DNA of 56,080 nt from a virus, in the IMG/VR virus record IMGVR_UViG_3300010885_060540, positions 1 through 56,080 of that record; one strand, 5' to 3'. How positions within the stretch are numbered: the first letter of the stretch is position 1; the number at the start of each line of letters is the position of its first letter. Positions 16,425-48,490 of the stretch are shown piece by piece. Under the pieces are notes generated by a model that ran no database searches, was not told where the DNA came from, and saw nothing but the letters and a program-made list of their open reading frames with translations. A program made the position numbers and the translations under genes.

Positions 16425-19400
16425 TTGGATTTTTATCAAATTAGTTGGACGGAACCAAAAACTGGACCTCCTAAATTATTTCCTGATTGGGTGGTGGGAC
16501 GCTCAAAAGACCTGATGGTTCGAGGCAGATCTTTTTACGCCATTTGGGACGAAAAGAAAAGTTTATGGTCGACCGACGAATACGACGTACAGCGTTTGGT
16601 CGACGAAGAATTACAAGAGTATGCACGCAAAGTACAACAAGAACGTGGCGGCGAACTCCCAATAGCAATGAACTTACGTTCTTTTAACACAAAGATTTGG
16701 AGTACGTTTCGGGCGTACATGCAAAATATCAGCGATAATAGTCACCCGCTTGATGAGAATTTAACCTTTGCAAATACCGTTACGAAAAAAAGTGACTACG
16801 CAAGTAGAAAGTTACCGTACCCACTTGAGGAAGGAACTACTAGCGCTTGGGACGAACTCATGGCAGTTTTGTACACCGAGGAAGAGCTGGCAAAAATTGA
16901 GTGGGCCATTGGCGCTGTTGTATCCGGGGACTCAAAAAAGATTCAAAAGTTCTTGGTCTTTTATGGCCCTGCCGGAACGGGTAAGTCAACAGTCCTAAAC
17001 ATAATTCAAAATCTCTTTTCGGGCTACGTTTCGACATTTGACGCCAAAGCTCTTGGTAGTAATAACAACAGTTTTGCTACCGAGGTTTTTCGTAACAACC
17101 CACTTGTTGCGATTCAGCATGACGGCGACTTGTCAAAAATCGACGACAACACAAAACTGAACTCAATTATATCTCACGAAGAGATGACCATAAACGAAAA
17201 GTTTAAACCAAGTTATACAACTAAAATCAATGCTTTTTTATTTATGGGGACCAATCAGCCAGTCAAGATATCTGATGCCAAAAGTGGAATTATTAGAAGA
17301 CTGATAGACGTGCACCCAAGTGGCGTTAAAGTTGAGCCAGAACGCTACAATATACTGATGAAGCAGATTGACTTTGAGCTCGGCGCAATTGCCTATAAAT
17401 GTCTTAAAAAATATCAAGCGATGGGTAAGAACCACTACAACACCTATCGCCCGCTTGAGATGATGCTTCAAACTGACGTGTTTTATAACTATATTGAAGC
17501 AAACTTTGACCTGTTCAAGAAGCAAAATGGCGTTTCCTTAAAGCAGGCGTACGAACTATACAAAGAGTATTGCTCAGAGACCGGAATCGATCGTCTTCTT
17601 CCGCAGTATAAGTTCCGGGAAGAGCTTCGAAACTACTTCGTAAAGTTTCACGACCGAATTGAGAAGGACGGCGTATCAATACGTAGTTACTATTCAGAGT
17701 TCAAAGACTTAAACCCGCCGACGTCACTTAAACCACACGAAACATATTTGATTGATCTTGGTGAGAATACGTCCGCATTTAATAATGCGTATGGCTCACA
17801 GCCCGCTCAATACGGCAAAGCAAGTGGTGCTCCTGGGCGAAAGTGGAATCAGATATCGACAACTCTTTCGGATATCGATACGTCAAAACTGCATTTTGTA
17901 AAGATACCAACGAATCACATTGTCATTGATTTTGATTTAGTTGATGAAAATGGGAACAAAGATCTCAATCTAAACTTGCAAGCAGCTTCGCTTTGGCCGC
18001 CGACATATTCGGAAGTTAGTCAGTCCGGACATGGTTTACATTTGCATTATATTTATACTGGAGATGTACAACAGCTGTCGAATGTCTATGATGTTGGTAT
18101 TGAGATCAAAACATTACTCGGTGATAGCTCACTTCGACGAAGACTTACAAAATGCAACAATCTTGGCATTTCTACATTATCCAGCGGCCTACCAAAGAAG
18201 GAAAAAAACGTGATAGATAATCAAAGCATAAAGAGCGAAAAGAATCTGCGAGCGTTAATTGAGCGAAACCTTCGAAAAGAAATCCATCCGGGCACAAAAC
18301 CGTCGATAGACTTTATTCAAAAAATACTCGAAGATGCCTACGAAGGCGGGTTAAGTTATGACGTTCGTGATATGCGAGGACGGATACTGTCTTTTGCGGC
18401 GGCAAGTACTAACCAGTCGTCCGCTTGCATAAAGATTGTGCAGCAAATGAAATTCGCAAGCGAAAGCTCCATGGTCGAACCAAGCGATATTGATGAAAAT
18501 CAACCTTTGGTTTTTTATGACGTTGAGGTATATCCTAATTTGTTTGTTGTTTGTTGGAAATACGAAAACGACCCGGTAATCGTGAAAATGATAAACCCGT
18601 CCCCAGAGCAGATCGAACCGTTATTTAAACTTCGACTTGTCGGGTTTAACAACCGTAGATACGACAATCATATTTTGTACGGTCGATTTCTAGGTGAGTC
18701 ACTTGACGAGCTGTATGCTCGCTCTCAAAAAATAATCTCAACGCCGAACGATGGGTTATTTGGGGAAGCCTACAATTTGTCTTATGCCGATATTTACGAC
18801 TTTAGCTCAAAGAAGCAAGGTCTCAAAAAGTTTGAGATCGAGCTGGATATTCATCACATGGAACTCGACATTCCTTGGGACGAACCAGTTTCGGAAGATC
18901 TTTGGCCTTTAATCGTAGAGTATTGTAGTAACGATGTTGCGGCCACAGAAGTGGTCTTCAAAGATCGCCATCAAGATTTTGTTGCGAGACAGATTCTTGC
19001 TGATTTGTCCGGTCTATCCGTAAACCATACTACGCAGCAGCATACTGCCAAAATTATATTTGGCGAAGAAAAGAACCCGCAACGAAGCTTCGTGTACACA
19101 AATCTTTGGGAGCAATTTGAGGGGTATTTGTTTGACGGTAAGGTCTCATCGTACCGTGGGGAAATCGTTGGCGAAGGAGGTTACGTTTATGCGGAACCAG
19201 GCATGTATGATAACGTTGCGGTACTAGACGTTGCCAGTATGCACCCTACGTCAATTGAGGTATTAAACTTGTTTGGGCCGTATACCGAAAGATATTCTGA
19301 GCTAAAAGAGGCTCGTCTTGCGATTAAACGCAAAGAATATGACAAGGCTGCGGGTCTTCTTAACGGAAAGCTTGCTAAGTACCTAAATGGTAACGACGCT

Positions 19401-20153
19401 GCAGCTAAAGAACTGTCGTACGCTCTTAAGATTGTCATCAACATTGTCTATGGGCTTACCAGTGCCAAATTTAGTAACGCCTTCCGAGACTCAAGAAACA
19501 TAGACAATATCGTCGCAAAACGTGGCGCGTTATTTATGATCGACTTGAAGAATGCCGTTCAAGATAAAGGTTATACTGTCGTTCACATCAAAACGGATTC
19601 GATTAAGATCCCAGACGCAACCCCAGAAATAATCGACTTTGTCACGGAATTTGGTAAGTCGTATGGGTATGAGTTTGAGCATGAGTGCACGTATGATAAA
19701 TTCTGTCTGGTCAACGATGCGGTTTATATTGCTCGTGAGAAAGCAGAATGGACTGCAGTTGGCGCTCAGTTCCAACACCCGTATGTATTTAAATCTTTGT
19801 TCAGTGGCGAAGAAATTATATTTGCCGATTTCTGCGAGACAAAAAGTGTTACGCAAGGCGCAATGTACCTCGACTTTGGTGATGATGTTGACAATCATGA
19901 CATTAACGCTATGCGACATGTTGGTAGAACTGGTAGCTTTGTTCCGGTTTTATCTAATGGCGCATATTTGTGGCGCATCAAAGATGGTAAGAAATATGCA
20001 GTTGCCGGAACAAAAGGTTATCGATGGGTCGAGCGAAATGTTGCTGGCAGCAGAGACGTACTCGATATCGACATGCGCTATTTCGATGCGCTAAAAGAAG
20101 AAGCATATTCCGCTGTTGACTACTATGGATCGTTTGATCGTTTCGTATCGTAA
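16425..20153 (+). CDS. Helicase-PrimPol-family B DNA polymerase fusion
   Basis: 1242 residues from TTG 16425, behind AAGGAGG. Domains in order: an SF3/D5-like AAA helicase with Walker A GPAGTGKST (181-189), Walker B-like LVAIQHDGD (227-235), sensor FLFMGTNQP (271-279) and RR (291-292). Next is a primase-polymerase domain with IDFD (501-504), SGHGLHLHY (534-542) and GIEIKT (558-563). Last is a family B polymerase with exonuclease motifs YDVEVYP (D699, E701), FNNRRYD (D747) and YCSND (D837). Its polymerase motifs are A LDVASMHP (D935), B KIVINIVYG (1002-1010) and C HIKTDS (D1058). Motif C has K where most family B enzymes have D. It probably carries unwinding, priming and synthesis in one chain. 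Confidence 0.85.
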   Translation: MDFYQISWTEPKTGPPKLFPDWVVGRSKDLMVRGRSFYAIWDEKKSLWSTDEYDVQRLVDEELQEYARKVQQERGGELPIAMNLRSFNTKIWSTFRAYMQNISDNSHPLDENLTFANTVTKKSDYASRKLPYPLEEGTTSAWDELMAVLYTEEELAKIEWAIGAVVSGDSKKIQKFLVFYGPAGTGKSTVLNIIQNLFSGYVSTFDAKALGSNNNSFATEVFRNNPLVAIQHDGDLSKIDDNTKLNSIISHEEMTINEKFKPSYTTKINAFLFMGTNQPVKISDAKSGIIRRLIDVHPSGVKVEPERYNILMKQIDFELGAIAYKCLKKYQAMGKNHYNTYRPLEMMLQTDVFYNYIEANFDLFKKQNGVSLKQAYELYKEYCSETGIDRLLPQYKFREELRNYFVKFHDRIEKDGVSIRSYYSEFKDLNPPTSLKPHETYLIDLGENTSAFNNAYGSQPAQYGKASGAPGRKWNQISTTLSDIDTSKLHFVKIPTNHIVIDFDLVDENGNKDLNLNLQAASLWPPTYSEVSQSGHGLHLHYIYTGDVQQLSNVYDVGIEIKTLLGDSSLRRRLTKCNNLGISTLSSGLPKKEKNVIDNQSIKSEKNLRALIERNLRKEIHPGTKPSIDFIQKILEDAYEGGLSYDVRDMRGRILSFAAASTNQSSACIKIVQQMKFASESSMVEPSDIDENQPLVFYDVEVYPNLFVVCWKYENDPVIVKMINPSPEQIEPLFKLRLVGFNNRRYDNHILYGRFLGESLDELYARSQKIISTPNDGLFGEAYNLSYADIYDFSSKKQGLKKFEIELDIHHMELDIPWDEPVSEDLWPLIVEYCSNDVAATEVVFKDRHQDFVARQILADLSGLSVNHTTQQHTAKIIFGEEKNPQRSFVYTNLWEQFEGYLFDGKVSSYRGEIVGEGGYVYAEPGMYDNVAVLDVASMHPTSIEVLNLFGPYTERYSELKEARLAIKRKEYDKAAGLLNGKLAKYLNGNDAAAKELSYALKIVINIVYGLTSAKFSNAFRDSRNIDNIVAKRGALFMIDLKNAVQDKGYTVVHIKTDSIKIPDATPEIIDFVTEFGKSYGYEFEHECTYDKFCLVNDAVYIAREKAEWTAVGAQFQHPYVFKSLFSGEEIIFADFCETKSVTQGAMYLDFGDDVDNHDINAMRHVGRTGSFVPVLSNGAYLWRIKDGKKYAVAGTKGYRWVERNVAGSRDVLDIDMRYFDALKEEAYSAVDYYGSFDRFVS

Positions 20154-20917: not shown

Positions 20918-20998
20918 ATGACTCTTTTATATTTTGTGTCGGGATGGCTTCTGGCCGTTTTGACTTTAGAAATTGGAAGGTCGGGCGGTAACCGATGA
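20918..20998 (+). CDS. 26-residue membrane micro-protein
   Basis: ATG 20918 starts two bases after the SSB stop, and its TGA overlaps the next ATG as ATGA. The peptide (MTLLYFVSGWLLAVLTLEIG plus six residues) is almost entirely one transmembrane helix. Tight packing on both sides argues for a real gene. The function is unknown. Confidence 0.55.
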   Translation: MTLLYFVSGWLLAVLTLEIGRSGGNR

Positions 20999-21375
20999 GT
21001 TTGATAAGTCATGCTCGAGAAGAACTGACTCGAATCAAAGAAGACCCCGATATGATCGAGGGATATTTGGATATTATTCAGTCGTTCGCAGATCTTAGGC
21101 TTAGTGGCTCTCAAGCAGAGCACATGATTCCTATTTTGTTTAAACTGTTGAACTTTCAGCCTTTATCTCCTCTAACTAACGATCCGGCTGAATGGACGCT
21201 AGTTACGGATGATCTCTGGCAGAGTAAACGAAATCCAGAAGCGTTCTCAAAGAATGGTGGCGGAAGCTACTATATTCTATCAGAACGCGATATTGACCCA
21301 ACAGCATTTCACGTTTCAAAGCCGACCTACCTCACTCTGGTCGACTTGCGGACCAATCAAGTTGTGGATTTGTGA
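20995..21375 (+). CDS. Conserved actinophage protein, unknown function
   Basis: 126 residues starting in an ATGA overlap. The N-terminal half is helical (DMIEGYLDIIQSFADLRLSG). The C-terminal half has the block SPLTNDPAEWTLV, WQSKRNPEAFSKNGGGSYYI, seen widely in phages without known function. It belongs to a run of tightly packed small genes behind the replication genes, all probably on one transcript. Confidence 0.7.
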   Translation: MSLISHAREELTRIKEDPDMIEGYLDIIQSFADLRLSGSQAEHMIPILFKLLNFQPLSPLTNDPAEWTLVTDDLWQSKRNPEAFSKNGGGSYYILSERDIDPTAFHVSKPTYLTLVDLRTNQVVDL

Positions 21376-22888: not shown

Positions 22889-23386
22889 ATGAACAGACAG
22901 GTGTTTGTAATCCCACACGATCAATTCGAAGAAGTTGATCACCCCGAAGAAGTCACAGAGCAATCGCTTCTTTCAGTTGTTCGATGCCTCGTCGCGGAAC
23001 GTCCTGAAAAGAAGCGGATTAGCTACCCGGCCTTCTACGCAATTCCGCTGGACATCGATCAGAAACCGATCGGCGAAACGCATAGCATCTATCCCGGCGA
23101 CGTGGATGACCGCTATAAAACATTCATGGAAGTGCTCGACAACGCCTGCTACATCAGTGGCATGTTCAAAAGAATGTACGGGTTCGGCGAGGATAACGAC
23201 CCTGTGATCGACAGCTTCGTCTACGTCGTTTCCACGCAGTACGGTTTTGATATTCACGACATGCGAGCTCTGAGTTTGGCGCTAACATGTATGAATGCGA
23301 TTCCGGACAACGTCCACATCTCGGCGTTTGTTGTATCGACGGACATCGATTTCTACATCATCCCGTCATTTACGTCGTTGATGTAG
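22889..23386 (+). CDS. Hypothetical accessory protein
   Basis: 165 residues with AAGGAG ahead of ATG 22889. Acidic and soluble, with blocks RISYPAFYAIPLDIDQKPIG and GFDIHDMRALSLALTCM. Codons are GC-richer than in the operon upstream. It directly precedes the first large structured RNA. No family recognised. Confidence 0.65.
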   Translation: MNRQVFVIPHDQFEEVDHPEEVTEQSLLSVVRCLVAERPEKKRISYPAFYAIPLDIDQKPIGETHSIYPGDVDDRYKTFMEVLDNACYISGMFKRMYGFGEDNDPVIDSFVYVVSTQYGFDIHDMRALSLALTCMNAIPDNVHISAFVVSTDIDFYIIPSFTSLM

Positions 23387-23395
23387 TAATGGTTC

Positions 23396-23480
23396 GGAAG
23401 CTAGCATGGTTGCCAGATGTGACAAACCACTTGAGTTGTCAAAGAACAACATCTGATGGGTTCAATTCCCTAAGCTTCCA
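23396..23480 (+). other. Degenerate tRNA-like element
   Basis: GGAAGCT at 23396-23402 pairs with AGCTTCC (23473-23479), followed by A. A T-loop-like GGGTTCAATTCCC and a D-arm-like GCA/TGC are present. The anticodon arm has a bulged A, the loop CACTTGA lacks U33, the T stem has only three pairs, and no CCA is encoded. It therefore looks like a tRNA mimic or decayed tRNA rather than a working tRNA. Confidence 0.55.
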
Positions 23481-23815
23481 CTGAAATCTAGTTGGTCAAG
23501 TGTCGGTAAAGGTCATATTCCGCTTACGAACTACGTAGCGCAAGACGTAGGAGTGATGGCACTATATAGGGTATGACTACCAATAGTTTTAGTTGGGCGT
23601 GCGGCGTGTCAAGCCGTGGGTTAAATGAGGTAAGTAGGTGCCAGGAACCTGCATGAACGAGGCCAAGCCCTTAACAAAGAGTCTCCGCTTCGCGTGATGT
23701 TCGTTAAGGAATAGATGAGATTGAGAGCATGGGAGCCATGAGGCTGCTACCGTTTATGTAGAGAGTATGGCGTCGAAAAAGCCGAACCCAACACATTTTC
23801 AAAACTAATCAAAGG
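23396..23815 (+). ncRNA. Large structured RNA with tRNA-like 5' element
   Basis: 420 bases without a convincing ORF but rich in pairing. The first 85 nt form a tRNA-like fold (separate entry). Further stems are CTACG 23531-23535 with CGTAG 23546-23550, a CGGC/GCCG hairpin near 23605, CAGG/CCTG near 23642 and CCTTAAC 23669-23675 with GTTAAGG 23703-23709. CATGG/CCATG follows near 23730. The following gene's SD begins at 23813. Possibly a GOLLD-type or other ornate phage RNA. The family is not identified. Confidence 0.55.
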
Positions 23816-23821
23816 AGAAGC

Positions 23822-24034
23822 ATGAAGCAAATTGTCCAAGACACGCTGGTGTACATCGTTGAGTTTGAGCAGCTTCCAAAACTCCCGATCGTTGCCAGTA
23901 ATGAAAGCGAAGTTCCGTATGCCATGGCTCTTCAAAACGCCATTGAAGCTGGCATCATAACCAAAGGTGGAAAGTACGGAATTCACATAAACCCAAACTC
24001 GATGAGTTACATGGTTTATGCAATCGTCGACTAA
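23822..24034 (+). CDS. Small hypothetical protein
   Basis: 70 residues from ATG 23822, with AAAGGAG upstream. Alpha/beta protein (VYIVEFEQLPKLPIVASNES; YGIHINPNSMSYMVYAIVD). It lies between two structured-RNA regions and is followed by two more small genes. No family recognised. Confidence 0.65.
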   Translation: MKQIVQDTLVYIVEFEQLPKLPIVASNESEVPYAMALQNAIEAGIITKGGKYGIHINPNSMSYMVYAIVD

Positions 24035-24055
24035 AAGGCGAATCAAAAGAGAGAA

Positions 24056-24229
24056 ATGAACACATATGAAACTACACCGAAGTTGTTTTACTACGTGAAG
24101 TTTCTCGGTGGTAGTGAACCGACGTTCAAAGCAGAGACGTCGGACAAGATTCTTGCGGTAGAAATCGCAAAAGAAAAGTTCCAGAAAGAATACGGATACT
24201 GGCCAAATCAGCCAGTACTTGTTTACTAA
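24056..24229 (+). CDS. Small hypothetical protein (57 aa)
   Basis: ATG 24056 to TAA 24229, with a purine-rich AAAAGAGAGAA upstream. The 57-residue protein (starts MNTYETTPKLFYYVKFLGG, ends WPNQPVLVY) has normal phage codon use and lies in tandem with the genes on both sides. It is probably a small alpha/beta fold. No family recognised. Confidence 0.6.
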   Translation: MNTYETTPKLFYYVKFLGGSEPTFKAETSDKILAVEIAKEKFQKEYGYWPNQPVLVY

Positions 24230-24232
24230 TTG

Positions 24233-24255
24233 TAGGTGAGCACCCCGCTTACCTA
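24233..24255 (+). other. Intergenic hairpin before the 24271 gene
   Basis: TAGGTGAGC (24233-24241) pairs with GCTTACCTA (24247-24255) around a loop of ACCCC. There is no T run, so it is not a terminator. It may protect the mRNA or affect translation of the next gene. Confidence 0.5.
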
Positions 24256-24270
24256 GAACGGAGCATCGAC

Positions 24271-24510
24271 ATGTGGCGATACACTTGCCCGAAAACCCCG
24301 AATGTTATTTCAGAATCTCATTCTTTGGCAACATTGAATGCTCTTCTGGAAGTCCACAAATCGGGGTGCATCGATCCGGAATCTCCTTGGTACTATGTCT
24401 ATCTCCCGTGCTCTGAGGAGCATGAGATCTTGGACGACGGAGTTCCTTGTGACTTTCCGGATTGTTCCATCCCTTACGTCAGAAATGACGGTTTGACGGG
24501 CGTCGACTGA
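24271..24510 (+). CDS. Small cysteine-containing hypothetical protein
   Basis: 79 residues from ATG 24271, with CGGAG upstream. It has five cysteines (C6, C33, C47, C59, C65), including a C-terminal CDFPDC. They could bind a metal. It ends immediately before the large ornate RNA. No family recognised. Confidence 0.6.
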   Translation: MWRYTCPKTPNVISESHSLATLNALLEVHKSGCIDPESPWYYVYLPCSEEHEILDDGVPCDFPDCSIPYVRNDGLTGVD

Positions 24511-25097
24511 GCGACGTTAAACAGGCCTTTAGGCTCAGAGCGGTATCCCAGGAAGCTGTTCCGTATGACAGCGGGTTTTTAAGACGTAAAATCTCAACAT
24601 AGGCAGGACTCTTTGTATCCTAGATGCAAAATCAGCATGCGAGAAAGTAACCGAGAAACTGACTTAACTACGTAAATTTAGAGTGCGCACTCTTTAGACT
24701 CGTAGCTGGGATACATAGGCACTCCATATCTGTTGCAACAAATATGGTAAGACATCCTAGAGTGTTACCAGTAATGGCCCTAGGATCAACGCTTTATGAT
24801 TACTGGTAGGTGTCCAATACGCCTAAACCAAGCCGATCGCGACGGTGATTGGAACCGCGATACTCAGGCGGTATAGCTTACGGCGTTTCCCGTAGGACAC
24901 CACACGGTTGGTGAAATTTAGAGCGGCGTCGACGGTACGCGGCAGCAGAAAACCGGAAGGGAGCCCCAGTCCCCTTATACCAAAGCCTTTATGGCAACTG
25001 GCGGATCTGTTGAAAAACAGACAGAGTATTGAGCGCGCTGACAGATGATTTACCTCCTTTAATCGTCTGTCAGCGCTGCTCTACTTTGTGTATTTTT
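24511..25097 (+). ncRNA. Large ornate RNA, GOLLD-like candidate
   Basis: 587 bases with no convincing ORF and many stable stems. Examples are GCTGT/ACAGC near 24563, TGTATCC/GGATACA closing a domain, ACCAGTAAT 24767-24775 with ATTACTGGT 24799-24807, and GGTGTCC 24809-24815 with GGACACC 24895-24901. The last encloses CGCCT/AGGCG and TCGCG/CGCGA. A GNRA hairpin TCTGTT-GAAA-AACAGA (25006-25021) follows. The terminal 11-bp stem GCGCTGACAGA (25035-25045) with TCTGTCAGCGC (25066-25076) carries ACCTCCTTT in its loop. Size, ornate fold and position next to tRNAs in a phage fit the GOLLD class. The family match is not proven. Confidence 0.7.
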
Positions 25098-25098
25098 C

Positions 25099-25171
25099 GC
25101 CTCTTTAGCTCAGTCGGTAGAGCAGTGGACTTTTAATCCATTGGTCGTGGGTTCGAACCCCACAGGAGGCA
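25099..25171 (+). tRNA. tRNA-Lys (anticodon UUU)
   Basis: 73 nt with a full cloverleaf: acceptor GCCTCTT/AGGAGGC (one G-T pair), D arm GCTC/GAGC, anticodon stem GTGGA/TCCAT with loop CTTTTAA, and T arm GTGGG-TTCGAAC-CCCAC. Discriminator A; no encoded CCA. Confidence 0.96.
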
Positions 25172-25196
25172 CTCACCAAACAGAAAGGACGAACGC

Positions 25197-25373
25197 ATGG
25201 TTCGTTACAGCGAAACCGACAAAGCTTGGGTTTCAGGAGTAAACCCAGACGAAACCGGAATGCCGACCACAAACCTTGTGGGAGACGACAAGGTTTGCAC
25301 ATGCGAAGCTTGTTTTCAAGCCTACATCGACGGGCTCGGATCAAACCACGACCAAGTTCATGGAGGCGTGTGA
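25197..25373 (+). CDS. Small CxCxxC protein (58 aa)
   Basis: ATG 25197 with AAAGGA upstream, ending TGA 25373. The 58-residue protein begins MVRYSETDKAWVSGVNPDE and contains CTCEACF, with a histidine pair nearer the end (NHDQVH). This could be a small zinc site. It sits between tRNA-Lys and a small membrane protein. No family recognised. Confidence 0.6.
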   Translation: MVRYSETDKAWVSGVNPDETGMPTTNLVGDDKVCTCEACFQAYIDGLGSNHDQVHGGV

Positions 25374-25374
25374 C

Positions 25375-25503
25375 ATGAGCAACCGGTATCCATTTGGCTC
25401 CGCCCCAAGCCAAAGTGAAGCAATCAGTTGGGTTATGATTGTTTCAGGCGTCGCCCTTGTTTATGCTGCTGTCCGGGTAGCAAAAAAGGAACGCCCGCTC
25501 TAA
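25375..25503 (+). CDS. 42-residue single-pass membrane protein
   Basis: ATG 25375 follows the previous stop by one base, with GGAGG at 25362-25366. One transmembrane helix (WVMIVSGVALVYAAVRVA) is followed by a short basic tail (KKERPL). It resembles the other tiny membrane proteins of this genome. Function unknown. Confidence 0.6.
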   Translation: MSNRYPFGSAPSQSEAISWVMIVSGVALVYAAVRVAKKERPL

Positions 25504-25507
25504 ACCC

Positions 25508-25536
25508 GAAAACCTGAGTACGTTTTAAAACTGCTC
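25508..25536 (+). repeat. 29-bp direct repeat, left copy
   Basis: Identical to 26184-26212. It contains the palindrome GTTTTAAAAC. The two copies flank the GC-rich gene 25593-26180. Confidence 0.9.
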
Positions 25537-25592
25537 TCTTTCTTCTTTTTACACCTAATTACTAATTAACCCCAAACAGGAGGAAACAATAC

Positions 25593-26180
25593 ATGAAGCC
25601 CAACGAGTGGCTCGAACTGGTCACGGCCCACGCGTCTGACCCCTACAAGGTCAGTGATGAGAACCTGGCCCTTTTGCGAAGCAACTACGTGGTCTGGAAG
25701 GCCGCAATCGAAATGCTTCGGATGGAAAACAAGAACCGCCTCATCATGGAGACCCAACGTATCCTCAACGGTGAGATTCTCCCGACCGAAGACTTCGAAA
25801 TGCTCAAGCAAGGTGCCCATAAGCCGGACACCATGACGAGCGAACAATGGGAAGAGCTGCGGATCTTCCGTCTCCAGTACGTCGATTGGAACAGCAAACT
25901 CATCAGTTCCACCACTACCATGAACTTCTACAAGAAGTTCGACCAGGAGTTCAAGGAGTCCACCGGAGACATCCCGGTCGAAGTGCAGGAGGTGTACTGG
26001 AAGCAGCGAGCAACCAACCTCGAATCCGCGATCACGAAGCATCGGTCCGCATACGTGTTGGCGAACAAGCAGCCGAACGGTATCGACTTCCTTCTCTGGC
26101 AGGAGGCCGATCTCGGAGAGTTCCACGCTTCACGTCACGCTCAACTGGTCGAGAGCGGACGCCTCTCGTTCAAGGGCTGA
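25593..26180 (+). CDS. GC-rich hypothetical protein flanked by direct repeats
   Basis: 195 residues with AGGAGG ahead of ATG 25593. The protein is helix-rich and charged (NLALLRSNYVVWKAAIEMLR; YWKQRATNLESAITKHRSAY). No enzyme motif or known family is visible. Codons are strongly GC-ending, unlike most of the genome. It is bracketed by a perfect 29-bp direct repeat and by tRNA genes. This suggests a moved-in gene cassette or a gene adapted for high expression. Confidence 0.7.
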   Translation: MKPNEWLELVTAHASDPYKVSDENLALLRSNYVVWKAAIEMLRMENKNRLIMETQRILNGEILPTEDFEMLKQGAHKPDTMTSEQWEELRIFRLQYVDWNSKLISSTTTMNFYKKFDQEFKESTGDIPVEVQEVYWKQRATNLESAITKHRSAYVLANKQPNGIDFLLWQEADLGEFHASRHAQLVESGRLSFKG

Positions 26181-26183
26181 ACA

Positions 26184-26212
26184 GAAAACCTGAGTACGTT
26201 TTAAAACTGCTC
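26184..26212 (+). repeat. 29-bp direct repeat, right copy
   Basis: Identical to 25508-25536. It ends four bases before tRNA-Ile, so tRNA-Ile lies just outside the repeat-flanked cassette. Confidence 0.9.
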
Positions 26213-26216
26213 GGAT

Positions 26217-26290
26217 ATCCCCATAGCTCAGCTGGTTAGAGCAGCATCCTTATAAGATGCAGGTCACGGGTTCAAGCCCCGTTGGGGATA
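26217..26290 (+). tRNA. tRNA-Ile (anticodon UAU)
   Basis: 74 nt: acceptor ATCCCCA/TGGGGAT, D arm GCTC/GAGC, anticodon stem GCATC/GATGC with loop CTTATAA, and T arm ACGGG-TTCAAGC-CCCGT. It reads AUA directly, without the usual lysidine-modified CAU anticodon. No encoded CCA. Confidence 0.95.
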
Positions 26291-26375
26291 CTATAATATG
26301 GGAACAGTCCAAGAACCGTCAACACGCTTCGCGCGGAGGTGAGGATTGGTAGATGCATATACCTAACCCATATTT

Positions 26376-26448
26376 GCCGGATTAGCTCAGTTGGCAGAGC
26401 ACCGCACTTGTAATGCGGTTGTCGCAGGTTCAATTCCTGCATCCGGCT
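26376..26448 (+). tRNA. tRNA-Thr (anticodon UGU)
   Basis: 73 nt: acceptor GCCGGAT/ATCCGGC, D arm GCTC/GAGC, anticodon stem CCGCA/TGCGG with loop CTTGTAA, and T arm GCAGG-TTCAATT-CCTGC. Discriminator T; no encoded CCA. Confidence 0.95.
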
Positions 26449-26470
26449 CTCAAGTAGTAAAAGGAGAAAC

Positions 26471-26764
26471 ATGACAGAAATTAATTACGAAGAATACAAC
26501 ACCCGACGCGATGAGTTCTTCCATAGACTCGAGTCGCTTTTAGCGGAATACCCAGACGTGATGACAAAACCAACGGTTGGGGATCATGAATACGATTGCG
26601 AATGCGGGTACAACCCAGACGCACCCAAAATGATCAGTGGCATGGTGGTGATTGTTACCACTCGTGATGCTAACGATTGGGAGCAATTGTTTTGGGAAAA
26701 ACCAAGTGGGCAATCATATTTCCACACAATCGGAATGGTTCGAGAAGTTCTCGATTCAATGTGA
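26471..26764 (+). CDS. Small hypothetical protein with CxC motif
   Basis: 97 residues with AAAGGAG upstream of ATG 26471. Acidic; the middle has YDCECGYNPDAPKMISGMVV, then a beta segment (VVIVTTRDANDWEQLFW) and a C-terminal helix. It lies between tRNA-Thr and another small gene. No family recognised. Confidence 0.65.
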   Translation: MTEINYEEYNTRRDEFFHRLESLLAEYPDVMTKPTVGDHEYDCECGYNPDAPKMISGMVVIVTTRDANDWEQLFWEKPSGQSYFHTIGMVREVLDSM

Positions 26765-48457: not shown

Positions 48458-48490
48458 AGTCAAAGCTAACAAATAGAAAGGAGGTATATT

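Follow-up and report, generated by a model that had tools for sequence, protein, structure and literature searches.

A predicted variant Pistol ribozyme heads an apparently undescribed pseudoknotted phage RNA that would end at tRNA-Lys

The role that small self-cleaving ribozymes play in bacteria and phages is a long-standing question. In the glmS ribozyme and in engineered aptazymes, a self-cleaving ribozyme is combined with a further RNA domain, and one study, to judge by its title, reportedly describes a Pistol aptazyme. For the Pistol family, the available portion of PMC4604425 sets out a strict rule, according to which the junction between P3 and P2 is exactly 2 nt long and the cut falls between its two bases. 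Theta ribozymes, as far as the available portion of PMC10879173 goes, cut within 5 nt of tRNA 3′ ends in gut phages and have been proposed to mature these ends. The available portion of PMC12286853 describes GOLLD and ROOL as structured phage RNAs that often lie near tRNA islands, with many GOLLD members exceeding 800 nt. The literature drawn on here comprises portions of PMC4604425, PMC10879173, PMC12286853, PMC6154101 and PMC10986025. Searches of the open-access literature, one of them on anti-SD RNAs, returned no Pistol-headed composite of the kind reported below among the matches listed, which falls short of proving the arrangement unpublished.

The window analyzed here, that is the whole 56,080-nt stretch of DNA, corresponds to an IMG/VR phage record of 56 kb with genes for tail, terminase, portal, DNA polymerase and helicase proteins. 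A Pistol ribozyme and four tRNAs are the only features above Rfam cut-offs across its full length. A preliminary description, made from the letters alone, had placed a GOLLD-type RNA at 24511-25097 on account of its size and its tRNA neighborhood. The neighborhood is real, tRNA-Lys beginning at 25099, the next base after the predicted RNA. The class assignment is not borne out: cmscan of 23300-26500 returns no GOLLD match up to E=5, and in the same interval and up to the same limit there is no match to the covariance model of ROOL, a profile that was in Rfam by March 2024 according to the available portion of PMC12286853. The region was also correctly chosen, but its start was off, as Pistol P1 begins at 24501, ten bases earlier, and the ribozyme itself, which Rfam places at 24501-24553, had been overlooked. 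A cage RNA of the GOLLD or ROOL type would share the phage origin, the structured character and the tRNA neighbors of this RNA, but the absence of model matches, a predicted product of 383 nt against the more than 800 nt of many GOLLD members, and a 5′ ribozyme that the available portion of PMC12286853 does not mention for these RNAs render this identity barely credible. Theta ribozymes are likewise small self-cleaving ribozymes beside phage tRNAs, yet they belong to another ribozyme class and, in the portion of PMC10879173 drawn on, cut at the tRNA 3′ end, whereas the window's ribozyme would cut 383 nt upstream of a tRNA. A cut of the theta type, at most 5 nt from a tRNA 3′ end, was considered and rejected, the predicted cut lying between 24715 and 24716 and all four called tRNAs beginning at 25099 or downstream.

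What the locus appears to hold is a known ribozyme in variant form, heading a so far undescribed pseudoknotted RNA that would end at tRNA-Lys (Table 1). The reading favored here, with a probability of roughly 60%, is that of a noncoding RNA processed by a ribozyme from within a multi-gene phage transcript.

Table 1 Features of the Pistol-headed locus, in positions of the window
Feature	Position	Strand	Remark
79-aa ORF	24271..24510	+	UGA stop 24508-24510 inside Pistol P1 loop; mechanical ORF call
Pistol ribozyme core	24501..24542	+	Rfam RF02679 24501-24553, 41.3 bits vs cut-off 34.5
Pistol P1	24501-24505/24512-24516	+	
P1-loop/core pseudoknot	about 24507-24512/24533-24538	+	
Pistol P2 5′ strand GCCU	24525-24528	+	by reading of sequence
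Pistol P3 with branched insert	24543..24714	+	basal helix 24543-24551/24706-24714, 9 bp
Predicted cleavage site A24715/U24716, then P2 3′ strand AGGC 24717-24720	24715..24720	+	2-nt junction family rule
Predicted 383-nt 3′ product, 5′-OH	24716..25098	+	fold z and covariation with L003
H-type pseudoknot	24754..24808	+	stem 1 24754-24760/24780-24786; stem 2 24766-24775/24799-24808
GAAA tetraloop hairpin	25007..25020	+	alternative: A-run pairs with U-run before tRNA
Terminal hairpin, 28 pairs	25021..25089	+	loop UACCUCCUUU 25051-25060, anti-SD-like
tRNA-Lys(TTT)	25099..25172	+	5′ end would define 3′ end of RNA

P1 and the strands of the P1-loop pseudoknot can be located in the window, and the three-stem layout of a Pistol is present. 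In the Rfam alignment, P2 and P3 are left with only a few bases, but the sequence permits a better solution. Specifically, GTATCCCAG pairs with CTGGGATAC to form the base of P3, followed by AU and then by AGGC, which pairs with GCCU as P2. None of 200 dinucleotide shuffles scores as well on P3 plus P2, in a search that had the 2-nt junction built in. Because the P3 strands sit 154 nt apart, P3 holds a large branched insert, which by itself folds with a z of -2.7 (1/200 shuffles as stable). By the 2-nt junction rule, cleavage should fall between A24715 and U24716, at an AU rather than the commoner GU dinucleotide. As the core is intact, the ribozyme is predicted to be probably active. It shares P1, the pseudoknot, the A-rich linker, the GAGCG core, P2, P3 and the 2-nt junction with RF02679, and differs in its 154-nt branched P3 insert, in the AU junction and in heading a longer structured RNA. 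The P3 assignment is well supported by a relative, L003, whose DNA polymerase gene is 99% identical to that of the window at the DNA level. L003 carries two tandem Pistols upstream of the same 3′ domain, each with its own large P3: the first has the P3 of the window, while the second matches the window throughout its 44-nt core but has a different arm (GTGTGGG/CCCACAC, 134 nt in span), after which AU and AGGC come in the same register.

These elements are compatible with a model in which the Pistol, with its 172-nt P3 domain, overlaps the stop codon of the small ORF (24271-24510) and, after departure of the ribosome, folds and cleaves the transcript at 24715/24716. A folded ribozyme would then form the 3′ end of the upstream mRNA, and the downstream product would start with a 5′-OH and comprise the pseudoknotted domain and the long terminal hairpin, its 3′ end being freed by host RNase P at tRNA-Lys. 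Bounded by a Pistol cut at its 5′ end and an RNase P cut at its 3′ end, the product would be a defined and probably stable RNA of about 383 nt, which would need neither a promoter nor a terminator of its own. Promoter-like sites are as frequent as in shuffles (5 vs 5.1) and terminator-like sites exceed the shuffled level (10 vs 5.1), but no site of either kind is convincing for the Pistol-headed RNA.

Folding energies confirm the earlier claim of a structured RNA. The stretch 24501-25097 folds at -205.7 kcal/mol against a shuffle mean of -170.1 kcal/mol (z -5.0), better than 100 out of 100 dinucleotide shuffles, and the 383-nt 3′ part on its own reaches a z of -5.4, with 0/100 shuffles as stable. 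The terminal stem, previously given as 11 bp, is present but comprises 28 pairs; a single bulged base on the 3′ arm is the only break in its inner 20 pairs, and none of 200 shuffles is equally stable (z -9.8). The GNRA hairpin that had been proposed is recovered in part: GAAA is displayed at 25007-25020 in the isolated 3′ end and in L003, but not in folds of longer pieces, where the A-run of this hairpin pairs with the U-run preceding the tRNA. From the last pair of the terminal hairpin at 25089, nine bases lead to tRNA-Lys, seven of which are paired when the 3′ part is folded as a whole.

Close relatives of the RNA are few. Two patterns for the exact RNA match only L014 and L015 in viral_contigs, and one pattern run against genome_contigs finds no match. 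With blastn, named phages match the Pistol core and all other matches are at chance level (E 3 to 9); for a 24.9-kb stretch of the window, no near match was found. Across the RNA, L015 is identical to the window and L003 is about 92-95% identical. Between window and L003, 5 of the 66 pairs of the 3′ domain are changed on both sides with pairing kept, and all of them lie in the pseudoknot, one in stem 1 and four in stem 2. Stem 2 keeps eight of its ten pairs in L003 and loses two; random substitution of an equal number of bases in this stem yields four or more double changes with P 0.003, and slid controls give 0-2. In the shuffle control, 15/500 are as high as observed, the lowest fraction attainable with two sequences and five such pairs. 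The other helices of the domain vary on one side at most, the terminal hairpin showing one U-A to U-G change and an unchanged loop. Since only two distinct sequences carry the domain, energy is the basis for most of its fold. Judged by the refuting condition named in the preliminary description, the RNA stands, with an Rfam match, to Pistol rather than GOLLD, and five double changes. The same comparison bears on the view that the locus is structured debris of recombination between ribozyme cassettes that has fallen into disuse. Window and L003 do differ by a whole Pistol unit plus a small ORF, and short shared sequences mark the breakpoints, but double changes that preserve pairing, and a Pistol core that is identical over 44 nt between the window and the second L003 copy, make such a relic highly unlikely.

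The wider distribution of phage Pistols places this ribozyme in context. Searching with a Pistol pattern that includes the CTGAGC/GCTCAG pseudoknot gave 35 matching viral stretches, and the first set consists of 30 distinct Pistols, including those of the window, L003 and two named phages. In a larger set of 50 distinct phage Pistols, the best combination of P3, junction and P2 within 330 nt was scored against 200 dinucleotide shuffles each, and in 36/50 cases no more than 5/200 shuffles score as well. P3 spans 10 to 186 nt and reaches 73 nt or more in 25 Pistols, of which those of L022, L043 and L061 are weak (14, 23 and 41 of 200 shuffles, respectively); the window, with 172 nt, shares second place with the first Pistol of L003. 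Junction dinucleotides are GU in 33 Pistols, AU in 16 and CU in 1, and as scoring required U in the second place and favored G in the first, GU is overcounted if anything. The P1 filter dropped seven pattern matches, four of which, in L063 and L069, look false; those of L033, L047 and the fourth of L036 (49.6 bits) are probably true Pistols. The Pistols of L052, L058 and L073 were missed by the scoring pattern and found by Rfam, and matches with less than 60 nt downstream were passed over by the pattern. In L036:199-2838, four Pistols above the Rfam cut-off lie on one strand with an ORF between the first two, which would be in keeping with the cleavage of a multi-gene mRNA into segments.

The overlap with a stop codon recurs as well. 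An ORF of at least 45 codons ends at the P1-loop UGA (TGA in DNA) in 12 of the 30 distinct Pistols, window included. In Microbacterium phage Count, this ORF is an annotated glutaredoxin gene, and in L016, it differs from the annotated gene. A ribosome terminating at the P1-loop UGA would cover P1, and cutting may therefore wait for termination.

By comparison, a tRNA within 1 kb downstream is found for 7/50 Pistols, three of them from the lineage of the window and L003, against a base rate of 5% and with 1 kb downstream available for this count in 43/50. The Pistol-tRNA neighborhood is thus not general, and an association is suggestive at most. Pistols lie near tRNAs in L038, L039 and Gordonia phage GMA2 (L074), whose Pistol (56.8 bits) follows tRNA-Trp by 3 bases inside an annotated tRNA cluster. 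The distance from its predicted cut to tRNA-Gln is 133 nt, a layout as in the window; its P3 has only 3 bp, and 108/200 shuffles score equally. GMA2 additionally contains a tmRNA match (94.6 bits) at 1778-2189, in the region 1778-2555, that overlaps a stretch annotated as a small hypothetical protein. These neighborhoods, a terminal hairpin that stops nine bases short of the tRNA and the theta ribozymes, with their cuts at most 5 nt from tRNA 3′ ends in the available portion of PMC10879173, could suggest that the window's RNA is only a leader, in which Pistol and long hairpin mature tRNA-Lys and the middle domain is packing. This is unlikely in view of a Pistol cut that falls 383 nt from the tRNA instead of at it, the compensatory changes in the middle domain and the absence of a tRNA from the first kb downstream of 43/50 Pistols, for some of which the available sequence is shorter.

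Excision of a noncoding RNA, the preferred reading, accords with what surrounds Pistols elsewhere. The phage Pistol is not a lone motif, as half of the 50 have a long P3 and another RNA, here called motif A, follows 16 of the first 30. Because Pistols carry such long P3 arms or motif A, the excision of noncoding RNAs from multi-gene phage transcripts presents itself as a concrete and testable role. In the loci scanned, Rfam has no match to motif A or to a second motif, B.

Motif A lies directly 3′ of the Pistol in these 16 cases, namely 15 and, by model, L024. Its elements are the hairpin CUGUG..CACAG, a second hairpin that covaries, the A-rich strand AAAAAACCG, a large domain apparently closed by a further helix, and a terminal helix. 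GGAC follows the best closing helix in 12/25 scored loci, in a search that favored GG. A pattern devoid of Pistol bases matched 23 stretches. Among 22 distinct rows, 21 have upstream sequence and all 21 show a Pistol core (18 by program, 3 by eye); for the 12 new contigs, this holds for 11 of the 11 with upstream sequence (8 by program, 3 by eye). Nine of these 11 Pistols are above the Rfam cut-off, and those of L051 and L061 match the core pattern only. Three pattern matches in bacterial genomes have no Pistol and correspond by rough estimate to about the number expected by chance. In an alignment that was fitted to the model and in which 77% of hairpin-2 cells pair, 62 cells are changed on both sides, 60 of them in hairpin 2, against 23 in shuffles, with 0/500 as high. 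Rfam searches of six motif A loci up to E=1 return only the Pistol and one weak fluoride match. An example of the motif is L044:4416-4487, to which 27 further matches can be added. The loop of hairpin 2 is a palindromic UGAUCA in 13/26 and could permit kissing dimers. The window was also considered as a divergent motif A, but the best score of model R1 is 3.3 bits on the other strand and 2.9 bits on the + strand, with no match at E<=1, so that Pistol alone ties the window's 3′ domain to the wider class.

Motif B, in turn, is a compact three-way-junction RNA that occurs inside several Pistol P3 arms or alone. Its elements follow in the order P1, C, P2 (with UA at its start and UA at its end), C[AUC]GUCUG, P3, GUCAG[AG]C and P1. 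There are 22 copies, eight of them in a Pistol P3 by program and a ninth, in L047, by eye, which the program scored as free although it lies inside P3. Pairs 3 to 5 of P2, which the search left unfixed, are kept in 22, 21 and 19 of the 22 copies, respectively, with several pair types, pair 6 is kept in 8/22 only, and P1 was partly selected for pairing. L003 carries copies at 19241-19295 and 19775-19829, one of them just upstream of a ribosome-binding site; the other loci are L004, L026, L027, L028, L030, L031, L035, L037, L043, L044, L047, L050, L052, L053, L054, L056, L058 and L060. In the window, neither motif B pattern matches, and Rfam yields no match to the motif at E<=1 in six loci scanned. 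Motif B, with its covarying P2, appears riboswitch-like. As P3 content, it is found in at least 8/50 Pistols, and the window holds an unrelated 154-nt domain in the same place. It is conceivable, if quite unlikely, that phage Pistols are natural switch ribozymes, in which sensor domains plugged into the P3 arm would control cleavage, and a functional RNA would be set free by the cut. With the glmS ribozyme and aptazymes, the window's RNA has in common that a self-cleaving ribozyme is joined to another RNA domain.

The terminal hairpin of the window raises a separate question. The exposed anti-SD-like loop that the preliminary description had pointed out is indeed there, ACCTCCTTT occupying 25052-25060 within the 10-nt loop 25051-25060, and nine bases of the loop match the 3′ end of 16S rRNA. 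As that description proposed, the loop might capture SD sites of mRNAs or mimic 16S ends. The exact 9-mer is expected 0.0017 times per 598 nt of the same composition and 6e-6 times in the loop, for a target that was chosen post hoc. It is further found once on the opposite strand of the window and in genomes without the Pistol-headed RNA. The relatives found all have the same loop, although one identical copy (L015) and one about 92-95% identical are hardly a test of conservation. Among the 50 Pistol loci, 44 of them with the full 700 nt, only the window and L003 have ACCTCCTTT at 700 nt or less from a Pistol core; the anti-SD loop is thus not a feature of the class.

The full complement of the 10-nt loop, AAAGGAGGTA, occurs once on the + strand of the window, at 48477-48486, as the SD sequence of the portal gene. 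Both relatives carrying the RNA (L079, L080) keep this portal SD. In L081, L082 and L083, relatives without the window's RNA, the 10-mer is missing from the 4.2 kb surrounding the portal gene; L081 has a Pistol with motif A, and the records of L082 and L083 yielded no Pistol. The RNA could accordingly be a trans-acting regulator, whose UACCUCCUUU loop would pair with ribosome-binding sites, best that of the portal gene, and block or delay translation. We regard this as quite improbable. Any ACCUCCUUU pairs with good SD sequences by design, the comparison amounts to one lineage, and no other lineage among the 50 Pistol loci has ACCTCCTTT within 700 nt. Because strong SD sequences must resemble the complement of such a loop, the match to the portal gene is a lead and not evidence.

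Several further observations concern the same phages. A phage ligase that circularizes ribozyme products was considered, but RtcB is encoded in 1/24 records and RNA_ligase in 0/24, so that such circularization is not general. The only RtcB among the 24 records is that of phage Count (MH153801.1, 38635-39804), which also carries a Pistol. Upstream of the Pistol-headed RNA, the window contains a tRNA-like element at 23396-23479 that scores 28.5 bits with the tRNA-Sec model, below the cut-off of 47 bits; its acceptor stem is plausible by eye, and ARAGORN makes no call. More noncoding sequence, apparently structured by eye, follows at 23490-23800, about 200 nt of which are absent from L003. A 29-nt repeat, GAAAACCTGAGTACGTTTTAAAACTGCTC, is present in two identical intergenic copies at 25508-25536 and 26184-26212, and by eye, similar copies occur in L003. 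Finally, positions 20995-21375 of the window encode a Tad3-like protein (Pfam PF25185), an inhibitor of Thoeris defence.
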